64,000 nt of DNA, taken from positions 1,734,943 through 1,798,942 of the forward strand of contig NZ_FUYR01000001.1 of the NCBI RefSeq assembly GCF_900168015.1. The letters are read 5' to 3'. Under the pieces are notes generated by a model. The model was not told where the DNA came from. It did not search any database and saw nothing but the letters and a program-made list of their open reading frames with translations. Origin of the DNA: Daejeonella lutea. Its GTDB lineage: Bacteria > Bacteroidota > Bacteroidia > Sphingobacteriales > Sphingobacteriaceae. Below, one piece after another: positions 50,188-53,052 of this stretch (its first letter is position 1; the number at the start of each line of letters is the position of its first letter). The position numbers were made by a program, and so were the translations under genes.

Positions 50188-50802
50188 TCACCCAATCCGA
50201 TGATCCTTTTCAACACGAATCTTCAAATCCTCAGCAACACAAGGATTTTCCCTCAAATATGCAACCCGCTGCGATCCGGTATAGGTTCCGTTTAACCAGG
50301 TCTTAACCTGATTACGTTCCAGGATCGCAGGCATCCTATCGTGAATTTCTGCCATCGCTGAATTCGGCGGCATGGTGATCATCACAAAAGTGGGTAGAAG
50401 CACATTGGTTTTGATGTCCAGCCAGATATCCCATAAACCGGCGATATAAAATGGCTGTCCATCTGCACGTTCGATTCGGTAAGTTCGCTCCTGCTCACGG
50501 TTGTATTCAAAAAAAGCCTGGATCCGAACCACACAGTGCTTTCGGCCGATGAGCTCTTTCCATACCGGGACGGTGAACAGGGATTCAATGCGCGCATGTT
50601 TGTTCTTGCTATGGATCCGATCATCGTCAAGAGACAGTAAACCCCACCGAAAGGATTGAACTTTGGTTGGTGATGCATCTGTGACGACTGGCATCATTGA
50701 GCCAGGTTTACCGCCACTATCGCTTTTTGGAGTGTACGATGAGCCATCCCTGCTAATAATCCTGAGGTCCTTTTGCTCACCAATTTCTACGTGTCCGCAC
50801 AT
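50188..50802 (-). CDS. SOS response-associated protein, HMCES/YedK family
   Basis: It forms a stable thiazolidine crosslink with abasic sites in single-stranded DNA through Cys2, exposed after Met removal (MCGHVEIG). The other active-site blocks are ARIES (NARxE-like), the Glu region AFFEY and the His in EIHDRMPAIL. The 204-residue length is normal. A palindrome (ACTAA-N5-TTAGT) lies 23 bases upstream and also precedes the UmuDC-like cassette, consistent with DNA-damage control. Confidence 0.94.
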   Translation of the reverse strand: MCGHVEIGEQKDLRIISRDGSSYTPKSDSGGKPGSMMPVVTDASPTKVQSFRWGLLSLDDDRIHSKNKHARIESLFTVPVWKELIGRKHCVVRIQAFFEYNREQERTYRIERADGQPFYIAGLWDIWLDIKTNVLLPTFVMITMPPNSAMAEIHDRMPAILERNQVKTWLNGTYTGSQRVAYLRENPCVAEDLKIRVEKDHRIG

Positions 50803-50824: not shown

Positions 50825-50839
50825 ACTAATTATTTTAGT
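50825..50839. promoter_or_regulatory. Candidate damage-response operator ACTAA-N5-TTAGT (yedK copy)
   Basis: A perfect inverted repeat with 5-bp arms and a TTATT spacer, centred about 30 bases upstream of the YedK-family start. The same core (arms and spacer length) occurs at 53032-53052, upstream of the UmuD/UmuC cassette. Function as an SOS box is inferred. Confidence 0.5.
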
Positions 50840-50849
50840 CTTTTAGTTT

Positions 50850-51130
50850 TCATGCAGCGCTGTAATACCAGTCCTTCTCTTTCTCCAGTGAGGGTGCCAC
50901 TTGCTTTTCGCTTTGACGCTTGTCGATGTAAAAGGTCTTCCAATGACTGATTTCGGAAACAATATGCCGCATCGTGATTGTGATTGAAATGTCCTCCCTC
51001 CCCAGCTCCTTAAGTTTTGCACAAATGATCAGGCAGACCTTCCGGGCAAATTCATCGATATTTTTCTTCTTCTTTTCAGGTGGAAAGAACAGCTAGGCCT
51101 TTGGAGTTCCTTGTAAAATATCCTTTTCAT
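50850..51130 (-). pseudogene. Frameshifted small gene at the 3' end of the UmuDC cassette
   Basis: An ATG at 51130 overlaps the umuC stop (ATGA) and starts MKRIFYKELQRP, but this frame ends after 33 codons. From 51092 a second frame, one base out, is open for 80 codons to the TGA at 50852-50850. It looks protein-like: KKKKNIDEFARKVCLIICAK, HWKTFYIDKR, EKEKDWYYSAA. A stop (51095) precedes it and it has no good start of its own. The simplest reading is one gene of about 92 codons broken by loss of a single base near 51092. No family recognised. A sequencing error is possible. Confidence 0.55.
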
Positions 51131-52380
51131 TGCGTTACGATAATGTCTTTCCAGTCGGTGGTATATTGTTTACTCAGGTATTCCTGTTTCATTGCCCATT
51201 TCCTCTCAAGGCTGTCGACTGCCAAACGCAGCGTACCCCGGCCGTAACGGCCGTTTAAATCATCCATCAGGCCTGCCAGTTTTTGTTCACGGCTATGCTC
51301 GTATTTGGTAAAAAGGTTGTACTGGACTTCGTTTTCGGGAATAATTCCAGTAACGCGAACCCCGGTCTTAAGGTAATTATAGCCCGGCTGCCAGATAGCA
51401 CGGATCGCCTGCACGGCAATACGGGTTAACTGATGGGTGCTATTCGCAGCAAAAGGAACTTTCACGGTGATGCTCGGATAATGCTGATCATGTTTGATAT
51501 TATGTTTGTTGGTGCGCAAATAAATGGTGAGCGTGATTGCCATACTTTTTTGCTGCCGCAGTTTGAGTGCAACAGCAGCTGCGTGCATGGCTGCCGCTTC
51601 TTCAATGGGCTCCAGGGTTGTTTGATAGATATTAAAACTCTGGCTGGATTCAATTCCCTTTGATCGCTCGGCCACATCATTGATTACGTTACAGGGTTTA
51701 CCCCAAAGTTCCTGGTGTAAACGCCATCCTTGTACCGTCATGTGCTGACGTACAAAATCCGGCTTGAGTTCGCGAAAATCCTGAGCTGTCATAATATTAT
51801 ACTGGCGTAGTTTGCTGTAATAAGCCGGACCAATACCCCATACATCTTCAATCGGGAATTTTTTTACCGCATCTTTGATCCTGGCCTCCGTGTCGAGCAC
51901 TAAGTAATCCCGCTTTAGCTTTTTTGCCGCTTTGTTCGCCAATTTAGCAAGCGCCATAGTGGGGCCAATACCCAGTGTGATCGAAAGCCCGGTATCCCGC
52001 ATCACATTTGTGCTCGTTAGCTGTGCATGCTTGTGCAAATCGAGGCCTCTAATATTTTGAAGATCCAGAAACGCTTCATCAATACTGTAAACCATGAGCA
52101 TCGGGGTATAACGTGCTAGGTTGTTCATCATCCGGGCGCTCATATCTGCATACAATGCATAATTACTGCTAAAAATGATTGCATTATTTTCTGCCAGATG
52201 CTTGCGGACAAGAAATTCAGCGTCGGCCATTTTAATTCCGATAGCCTTTGCCTCATTGCTTCGGGCTATCACACAGCCGTCGTTATTCGACAGTACCACT
52301 ACCACCCTCCCTCTTAGATGAGGCTGAAAAAGCGTTTCGCAGCTTACATAGCAGTTATTGATGTCAACATGCGCAAACAC
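51127..52380 (-). CDS. umuC: Y-family DNA polymerase, UmuC-like
   Basis: The catalytic subunit of an error-prone translesion polymerase of the Pol V type. The fingers/palm start FAHVDINNCYVSCETLF has the first metal Asp, VLSNNDGCVIARS is characteristic of UmuC, and YSIDEAFLDL holds the second catalytic acids. A helix-hairpin-helix (EDVWGIGPAYYSKL) and little-finger domain follow; length is 417. The start overlaps the UmuD-like gene by 17 bases and the stop overlaps the next start (ATGA), so the cassette is translationally coupled. Confidence 0.96.
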   Translation of the reverse strand: MFAHVDINNCYVSCETLFQPHLRGRVVVVLSNNDGCVIARSNEAKAIGIKMADAEFLVRKHLAENNAIIFSSNYALYADMSARMMNNLARYTPMLMVYSIDEAFLDLQNIRGLDLHKHAQLTSTNVMRDTGLSITLGIGPTMALAKLANKAAKKLKRDYLVLDTEARIKDAVKKFPIEDVWGIGPAYYSKLRQYNIMTAQDFRELKPDFVRQHMTVQGWRLHQELWGKPCNVINDVAERSKGIESSQSFNIYQTTLEPIEEAAAMHAAAVALKLRQQKSMAITLTIYLRTNKHNIKHDQHYPSITVKVPFAANSTHQLTRIAVQAIRAIWQPGYNYLKTGVRVTGIIPENEVQYNLFTKYEHSREQKLAGLMDDLNGRYGRGTLRLAVDSLERKWAMKQEYLSKQYTTDWKDIIVTQ

Positions 52381-52798
52381 GTGCGTACCTCCCTATCATA
52401 TGCCCCGGCTGCAATACCGGATTTAATGTAACTGTAACTACTCCCCAGCAGCTCCAGGTATCTGTATCGTCTATAACGATCGTATCCTGCTCACGCGCTG
52501 CCTTCAACAACAAGCGGGATCCGTCCGGTCGGTACTCACGCGTCAAAAACTCGTCGCCATGATAGAAGACCACAATGCTTCCTGGAATAGGTTTAAGTCC
52601 ACGGTCAATTACCAGGACCTGATCTTTCAGTATATGGTAACTGGTCATCGCCTCACTTCCCATACGCATGTAAAAGGTATTATCAGGATCTATCACTAAA
52701 ATATCACTGATGTCAAGTGTCGGCTCCTCATGCATCATCATGGGCAGCCGGAAACCAAGTACATCGCGCTTATTGGCTTGCTTTTTTACTCTTGTCAT
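52364..52798 (-). CDS. UmuD-like S24-fold protein with both catalytic residues replaced
   Basis: The ATG at 52798 gives a 144-residue protein (MTRVKKQANKRDVLGFRLP); an in-frame codon at 52912 is less likely. The LexA/UmuD cleavage fold is recognisable: TFYMRMGSEAM, VLVIDRGLKPIPGSIVVFYHGDEF, DTWSCWGVVTVTL. E. coli UmuD uses Ser60 and Lys97, 37 residues apart. The matching positions here are Ala50 and Arg87, also 37 apart, so self-cleavage should be impossible. It overlaps umuC by 17 bases, and so probably acts as a pre-set UmuD'-like partner or a regulator of UmuC. Confidence 0.85.
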   Translation of the reverse strand: MTRVKKQANKRDVLGFRLPMMMHEEPTLDISDILVIDPDNTFYMRMGSEAMTSYHILKDQVLVIDRGLKPIPGSIVVFYHGDEFLTREYRPDGSRLLLKAAREQDTIVIDDTDTWSCWGVVTVTLNPVLQPGHMIGRYARVCAC

Positions 52799-52943
52799 CG
52801 TTATCACTTGTTTCAATTTCGTTTGAATAGGGGTACAGACTGTTCTGGACCGCTGCACGATATTCATTGCGGCGCTGAAATTGGATATATTTCCTGTGCT
52901 CCAATAGTTCAAGCTTGATTGGGGATATATCCGGCCTTACCAT
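52770..52943 (-). CDS. Small upstream gene of the UmuDC cassette, 57 residues
   Basis: A complete frame from ATG (52943) to TAA (52770) encodes a highly charged, apparently helical 57-residue protein: MVRPDISPIKLELLEHRKY, FQRRNEYRAAVQNSLYPYS, then an acidic-to-basic tail ending KSKKASQ. It overlaps the UmuD-like start by 29 bases, continuing the pattern of overlapping genes through umuC to the frameshifted last gene. Its composition is coding-like and it has no membrane segment. I recognise no family. It may be a small partner or regulator of the polymerase. Confidence 0.6.
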   Translation of the reverse strand: MVRPDISPIKLELLEHRKYIQFQRRNEYRAAVQNSLYPYSNEIETSDNDDKSKKASQ

Positions 52944-53031
52944 AGATTCTGTTTTACATGGTCACTTGGGATATTGTGCTGTAAACTCATATTCTGCAAA
53001 TAGGAATCAAAGCTAGGTATCTGGAATTGAT

Positions 53032-53052
53032 AATACTAATATTTTTAGTATT
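53032..53052. promoter_or_regulatory. Candidate damage-response operator AATACTAA-N5-TTAGTATT
   Basis: A perfect 21-base inverted repeat with 8-bp arms and a TATTT spacer, 89 bases upstream of the small first gene of the UmuDC-like cassette and 33 bases from a small plus-strand ORF. It shares ACTAA-N5-TTAGT with 50825-50839. On the plus strand it is followed by a short T-rich run, so a terminator role cannot be excluded. Confidence 0.5.

Follow-up and report, generated by a model that had tools for sequence, protein, structure and literature searches.

The window, a 64-kb stretch of DNA, comes from the 4.03-Mb genome of Daejeonella lutea, which is assembled in ten contigs. Read along the minus strand, an SOS box is followed by a 57-residue open reading frame, a umuD-like gene, umuC, the remnant of a gene, a second SOS box and a gene for an SRAP protein (Table 1). 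The original prediction, of four overlapping genes forming a UmuDC-like cassette with an inactive UmuD homologue, was silent on both of the SOS boxes that flank the cassette. Its overlaps of 29 and 17 bases are correct; the third, given as 3 bases, is one of 4 (ATGA).

Table 1. Features of the umuDC locus and its flanks, in minus-strand order (positions in the window).
Feature	Positions	Strand	Remarks
SOS box of the umuDC operon, CTAATATTTTTAG	53036..53048		Exact CTAA-N5-TTAG
57-residue open reading frame, probably not a conserved part of the cassette	52770..52943	minus	Without Pfam or NCBIfam match
UmuD-like protein, 144 residues, ATG start	52364..52798	minus	A50, R87, L14-G15
UmuC, 417 residues, GTG start	51127..52380	minus	Pfam IMS, IMS_C, DUF4113
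5'-truncated remnant of an accessory gene	50865..51092	minus	Residues 70-145 of a 148-residue relative, 55% identity
SOS box before the SRAP gene, CTAATTATTTTAG	50826..50838		Exact CTAA-N5-TTAG
SRAP (SOS response associated peptidase) gene	50188..50802	minus	Pfam SRAP, 4.4e-36

Four genes are not what is conserved here. Among 20 genomes of the genus the 57-residue frame matches its own genome only, and it occurs in none of the other loci examined. It occupies the spacer between the box and the ATG, which measures 250 nt here and 263 nt in L004, against 18-69 nt in the remaining 13 full-length orthologues of the UmuD-like protein (15 in all, the window's own included, and some of them near copies). 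The last gene was rejected as an intact member of the cassette, being the 3' half of a gene for 148 residues that is matched in only 3 of 151 genomes of the family, one of these matches being weak and lying inside an 879-residue frame. Intact relatives of the remnant are found in L036 (5145-5591), between umuC and the SRAP gene, and in genome G126 (C1, 137512-137937); a Pfam search with the intact gene gave no match. The SRAP gene lies downstream in all eight named loci (L031-L038) and is likely to be an SOS unit of its own.

In the UmuD-like protein Ala50 (GCG, 52651-52649) and Arg87 (CGT, 52540-52538) correspond, by sequence alignment, to Ser60 and Lys97 of E. coli UmuD, with a spacing of 37 residues in both proteins, as had been predicted. 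The would-be scissile bond is Leu-Gly, not Cys-Gly or Ala-Gly. That this is no chance alignment, and that the fold is conserved as claimed, is borne out by a Pfam Peptidase_S24 match (4.9e-9), an alignment with UmuD' (phmmer against 1umu, 1.8e-5) that spans residues 15-122 of the query, and an AlphaFold model that is best matched by UmuD' 1ay9 (TM 0.86 by target). This model, built with an alignment of 63 rows, has a mean pLDDT of 76.9, with 72 of 144 residues at 90 or above; with nine close orthologues only, the mean was 47.4. The NCBIfam UmuD model NF007621 matches with an E-value of 2.9e-18 and 66 bits, below its curated cut-off of 110, and the model for the phage UmuD'-like HumD (NF051876) gives 41 bits against a cut-off of 120. 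Pfam finds S24 only, and not the N-terminal HTH that would be expected of a Bacteroidetes LexA-like repressor. The protein thus has the S24/UmuD' fold of a UmuD and its place directly upstream of umuC, and lacks the Ser-Lys dyad and the Cys/Ala-Gly bond.

Scoring the two positions across relatives, as had been proposed, gave Ala50 and Arg87, together with the Leu-Gly at the would-be site, in all 15 orthologues. The named relatives found belong to Pedobacter and Mucilaginibacter (Sphingobacteriaceae), a list from which near records may be missing, and the protein is 62-70% identical to eight of them. An intact dyad elsewhere in the protein would have spoken against the prediction, and no conserved replacement was found among the 15: no Ser is invariant and the sole invariant Lys is Lys10, within the N-terminal arm, with Ser48 kept in 14 of the proteins and Ser74 and Lys99 in 13. 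Nor was a second UmuD able to cut in trans found in the genome, in which two S24 proteins were detected, the other being an HTH_3 + S24 repressor with an intact dyad (GDSM, YKRI) and Ala-Gly. With both residues gone, self-cleavage by the known chemistry would not be expected, in agreement with the claim that RecA-stimulated self-cleavage could not switch on this complex. The gene is under purifying selection: of 66 ortholog pairs, 35 have a dS below 5, and for these the median dN/dS is 0.11, with a median dS of 2.3, close to saturation. In one locus, L039 of Mucilaginibacter limnophilus, the umuD match spans residues 10-56 only and no full UmuC was found in the 7.1-kb locus; that cassette is apparently decaying.

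The partner is recognisable as UmuC from its catalytic carboxylates and from a DUF4113 region with a RecA-NT-like motif. It matches NCBIfam NF002955 (5.6e-98) with 328.6 bits, below the curated cut-off of 431, which is exceeded in only 11 of 296 genomes of the phylum. UmuC proteins that partner a dyad-less UmuD keep the D6 and SIDE carboxylates, Asp378 and Asn381 of the RecA-NT motif, and Thr413 in 58 of 58 cases each, and Trp400 in 56; for partners of an intact UmuD the carboxylates, Asp378 and Trp400 are each kept in 42 of 42, and Asn381 and Thr413 each in 41. Three dyad-less loci (L010, L018 and L022) have no full UmuC within the stretch examined. The 17-nt overlap of umuD and umuC is found in all 15 orthologues and the junction, CGTGTTTGCGCATGTTGA, hardly differs between them, with umuC starting at GTG in 13 and ATG in two. 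Hence the conserved RVCAC at the C-terminus of the UmuD-like protein follows for the most part from the way UmuC begins. The RecA-NT motif, which is proposed to bind RecA, is described in PMC6511836.

PMC8565304 gives CTAA-N5-TTAG as the SOS motif of umuDC, recA, recN and dinB in Bacteroidetes, and in several species of SRAP as well. There are three exact sites in the window and 49 in the genome; the reversed control pattern occurs 136 times, so that the motif by itself shows no enrichment. Roughly half of the 49 fall within frames and are probably due to chance. Elsewhere in the genome boxes lie just before a Y-family polymerase gene (31 nt), the HTH-S24 repressor gene (22 nt before the ATG), two radical-SAM protein genes (130 and 12 nt) and an exonuclease/GIY-YIG protein gene (47 nt), in line with the published regulon. 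The genome also encodes RecA. The 13-mer of the umuDC box recurs at C7:307401 (L156), 26 nt before a 247-residue frame with no Pfam match, and at C10:1079975 (L222), 26 nt before the gene of a 2'-5' RNA ligase-like protein; both may be further SOS genes.

An exact box lies by the umuD start in 38 of 39 loci, the exception being the truncated L039. When 115 loci were scanned up to 350 nt upstream of the Gly codon, for which letter shuffles expect about one box over the whole set, the box was present, within the window's family, in 44 of 45 dyad-less loci and in all 10 intact ones, and likewise in all six dyad-less loci and the one intact locus of a second family (f2). It was found in none of the nine dyad-less loci of a third (f23) and in 12 of 49 intact loci overall; these boxless loci are nearly all outside the window's family. 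For the box on the SRAP side, the 15 orthologue loci divide into eight with a box 29-53 nt after umuC, two with one at 464 and 1536 nt, and five with no exact box after umuC, of which L001, L004 and L005 end soon after umuC and L035 and L037 have the SRAP gene. The distinct mode of control that had been proposed is too strong a claim if it is taken as wholly distinct, since the SOS box is kept.

A UmuD match was found in 40 of 151 genomes of the family, in a first search that favours window-like proteins, and a UmuC match in 38. The 39 genomes read (G105, with a match of 68 residues, was left out, as was the UmuC of G143, which lies at a contig edge) comprise 29 with the dyad-less form only, nine with the intact form only and one with both; genomes that carry both forms are G095 of f1 and one genome of f2. 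Across the phylum UmuC is present in 130 of 296 genomes, at about 149 places, and 92 of these loci were read (the 30 best-scoring, all 32 marked as of the same class, and a further 30 at roughly one for each genus). A UmuD was found at 65, intact at 44 and dyad-less at 21, and none was found upstream of umuC at the other 27 (L042 to L129). At two of the 21, L126 and L127 of genome G398, the UmuD-like frames lie on the strand opposite umuC. In all, 120 UmuD-like proteins of Bacteroidota were read, 54 intact and 66 dyad-less; they are the 115 tabled plus five intact ones (L076, L077, L123, L130 and L131), the truncated L039 and five duplicates being uncounted.

The loss in both residues at once, attributed to a single lineage, is not how the larger set behaves. 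Both are lost in 61 of the 66 dyad-less proteins, Lys only in five and Ser only in none, which suggests that Lys may have been lost first, and on the UmuC tree the losses turn up in several places. Position 97 is mostly Arg and position 60 is varied (A, E, Q, C, D, M, H or R). An Ala-Gly or Cys-Gly bond is present in all 54 intact proteins and absent in 61 of the 66 dyad-less ones; the five that keep it have Cys-Arg (three), Ser-Arg and Arg-Arg at the two positions. The association between dyad and bond gives a Fisher value of 3.6e-27 over 115 rows, with kinship ignored, while kinship-aware independent pairs number only two on starred (supported) branches, with p 1. A link beyond shared ancestry is therefore not established: supported branches force only two independent losses, so that the link rests on few events. 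On a quick UmuC tree of 100 rows, whose long branches make single placements unsure, the dyad state needs nine changes on the best tree, at least two of them forced by starred branches. The dyad-less rows fall into a 33-row clade of the window's family, a six-row clade of f2, a nine-row clade of f23, a four-row Cys clade, a pair and single rows. Placing them all in one clade is weakly rejected (p-AU 0.034, for a group defined by dyad state and not by the tree). Repeated loss of the dyad would seem likely from these placements.

Searches of plasmids and phages with the UmuD-like protein gave distant matches only, and scanning viral sequences with the orthologue alignment brought up no relative. 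As a control, 77 of 78 scored viral UmuDs had Ser-Lys and one Cys-Arg (from the best 80 of 563 loci, after removal of two whose match is interrupted by a stop); this control is biased by queries with intact UmuD, by the scissile motif as one of the search patterns and by some identical copies. UmuDs with Cys at position 60, Arg at 97 and Ala-Gly kept form a clade (L015, L019, L024 and viral contig L297, 1801-2199); these could be UmuDs with a Cys nucleophile.

In the window's clade 14 residues precede the Gly, compared with 24 in E. coli UmuD, and this shortness had been taken as the sign of a constitutive UmuD'-like partner. That reading is not supported, as the UmuD' start still has 14 conserved, basic residues in front of it, of which the final five do not vary among nine aligned proteins (in which invariance extends over K10-M20), and in the other dyad-less clades the arm is some 23-28 residues long, counted from the first Met with starts inferred. 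Published models place the N-terminal end of UmuD' next to the active site of UmuC (PMC11791011; PMC12926913). Judged by the residues present, known self-cleavage could not free this end here.

Comparison of the deduced proteins and their upstream regions establishes that the dyad and the scissile bond have both been lost while the fold, the polymerase and the SOS box are kept. In textbook accounts the self-cleavage of UmuD imposes a delay, so that mutagenic Pol V stays off unless the damage proves persistent. It seems rather probable that the locus encodes a Pol V-type polymerase still under SOS transcription, and probably under RecA, from which the UmuD-to-UmuD' step has been deleted and in which the arm is kept. 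After damage, the HTH-S24 repressor, with its own dyad, would cut itself on RecA filaments and so release umuDC. The UmuD-like dimer, already in its final form, would then bind the UmuC tail immediately, without the UmuD-to-UmuD' delay, and its uncut basic arm might reach towards the UmuC active site and the DNA, as modelled for the arm of UmuD'. RecA binding to UmuC through the RecA-NT-like motif would be the last level of control. The timing given by cleavage would thus be deleted, with transcription and RecA binding carrying the control. The original observation was right, and broader than first stated; the mechanism proposed with it was partly right.

In E. coli, UmuD has to be cleaved before it is fully active in mutagenesis, and the uncut arm could for that reason equally well inhibit. 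An uncuttable UmuD might hold UmuC in a restrained state, the operon slowing replication instead of making mutations, which we consider rather unlikely. Uncleaved UmuD2C is said to restrain, or act in a checkpoint-like manner, in E. coli. PMC2921402 cites a checkpoint model for umuDC. An arm that is kept, invariant next to the would-be site and retained at greater length in the other dyad-less clades, would suit such a role, but the retention of the catalytic carboxylates in all 58 UmuC partners is hard to square with a polymerase that never synthesises, while a release by RecA is still conceivable. It seems improbable that another protease trims the arm and a UmuD'-like form is still made. 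The arm is predicted to be disordered, with pLDDT below 50 for residues 1-19, and the 15 orthologues retain the 'GF' with which UmuD' begins, but the residue before the Gly varies by clade (L, S or T), trimming would remove the invariant residues 10-14, and the genome yielded no second UmuD for action in trans. Residual or altered self-cleavage, using Arg87 and another nucleophile, is very improbable: Ser48, Thr in one of the 15 orthologues, is two residues from the lost position, but no Ser is invariant, Lys10 is the only invariant Lys and the scissile Ala or Cys is gone. To a decaying gene or an alignment artefact we give hardly any credence, because despite the adjoining remnant and the truncated umuD of L039 the 144-residue frame is well conserved under a low dN/dS, the gene overlap and SOS box are conserved and the core model is good and matches UmuD'.

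Beyond this locus the reading of a Pol V-type enzyme without the cleavage step may, tentatively, be widened: on several occasions Bacteroidota would have given up the self-cleavage of UmuD, dyad and bond disappearing together, and the N-terminal arm, never removed, would have become a lasting component of a Pol V-like enzyme whose timing depends only on SOS transcription and RecA. Natural, conserved operons of this type raise the question of the purpose of cleavage, and ask whether an active polymerase can hold an uncut arm and whether the host mutates earlier or differently after damage. Dyad-less and intact forms can be compared side by side, as both occur in one family and even in single genomes.

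Like E. coli UmuDC (Pol V), the locus has an S24-fold small subunit just before UmuC, SOS control, and a UmuC with a RecA-NT-like motif and C-tail; it differs in lacking the Ser-Lys dyad and the Cys/Ala-Gly bond, in having 14 rather than 24 residues before the Gly and in its 17-nt overlap. UmuD S60A is one laboratory mutant that cannot be cleaved. Others substituted at equivalent positions are UmuD with Ala at 97 (8gmt) and LexA S119A (1jhh), whereas the substitution here is natural, fixed across a clade and accompanied by loss of the bond. The non-canonical LexA regulon of Bacteroidetes shares CTAA-N5-TTAG upstream of umuDC and SRAP and an HTH-S24 repressor with an intact dyad (PMC8565304); the UmuD dyad is not mentioned in the parts of that paper covered. 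An SRAP gene beside UmuC is also described in PMC12926913, the SRAP gene here having its own SOS box. The YqjX/YolD small subunits of YqjW/UvrX are likewise small partners with an arm modelled to enter the polymerase, but by sequence searches they are unrelated to UmuD (PMC6511836; PMC12926913). A description of a dyad-less UmuD was not found in the open-licence literature, covered as titles, starts of abstracts and passages. The nearest precedent found there is the LexA of Synechocystis, which lacks the nucleophile and the cleavage bond (PMC2921402), the same natural loss in an S24 protein, but one that is a LexA repressor and not a polymerase subunit.
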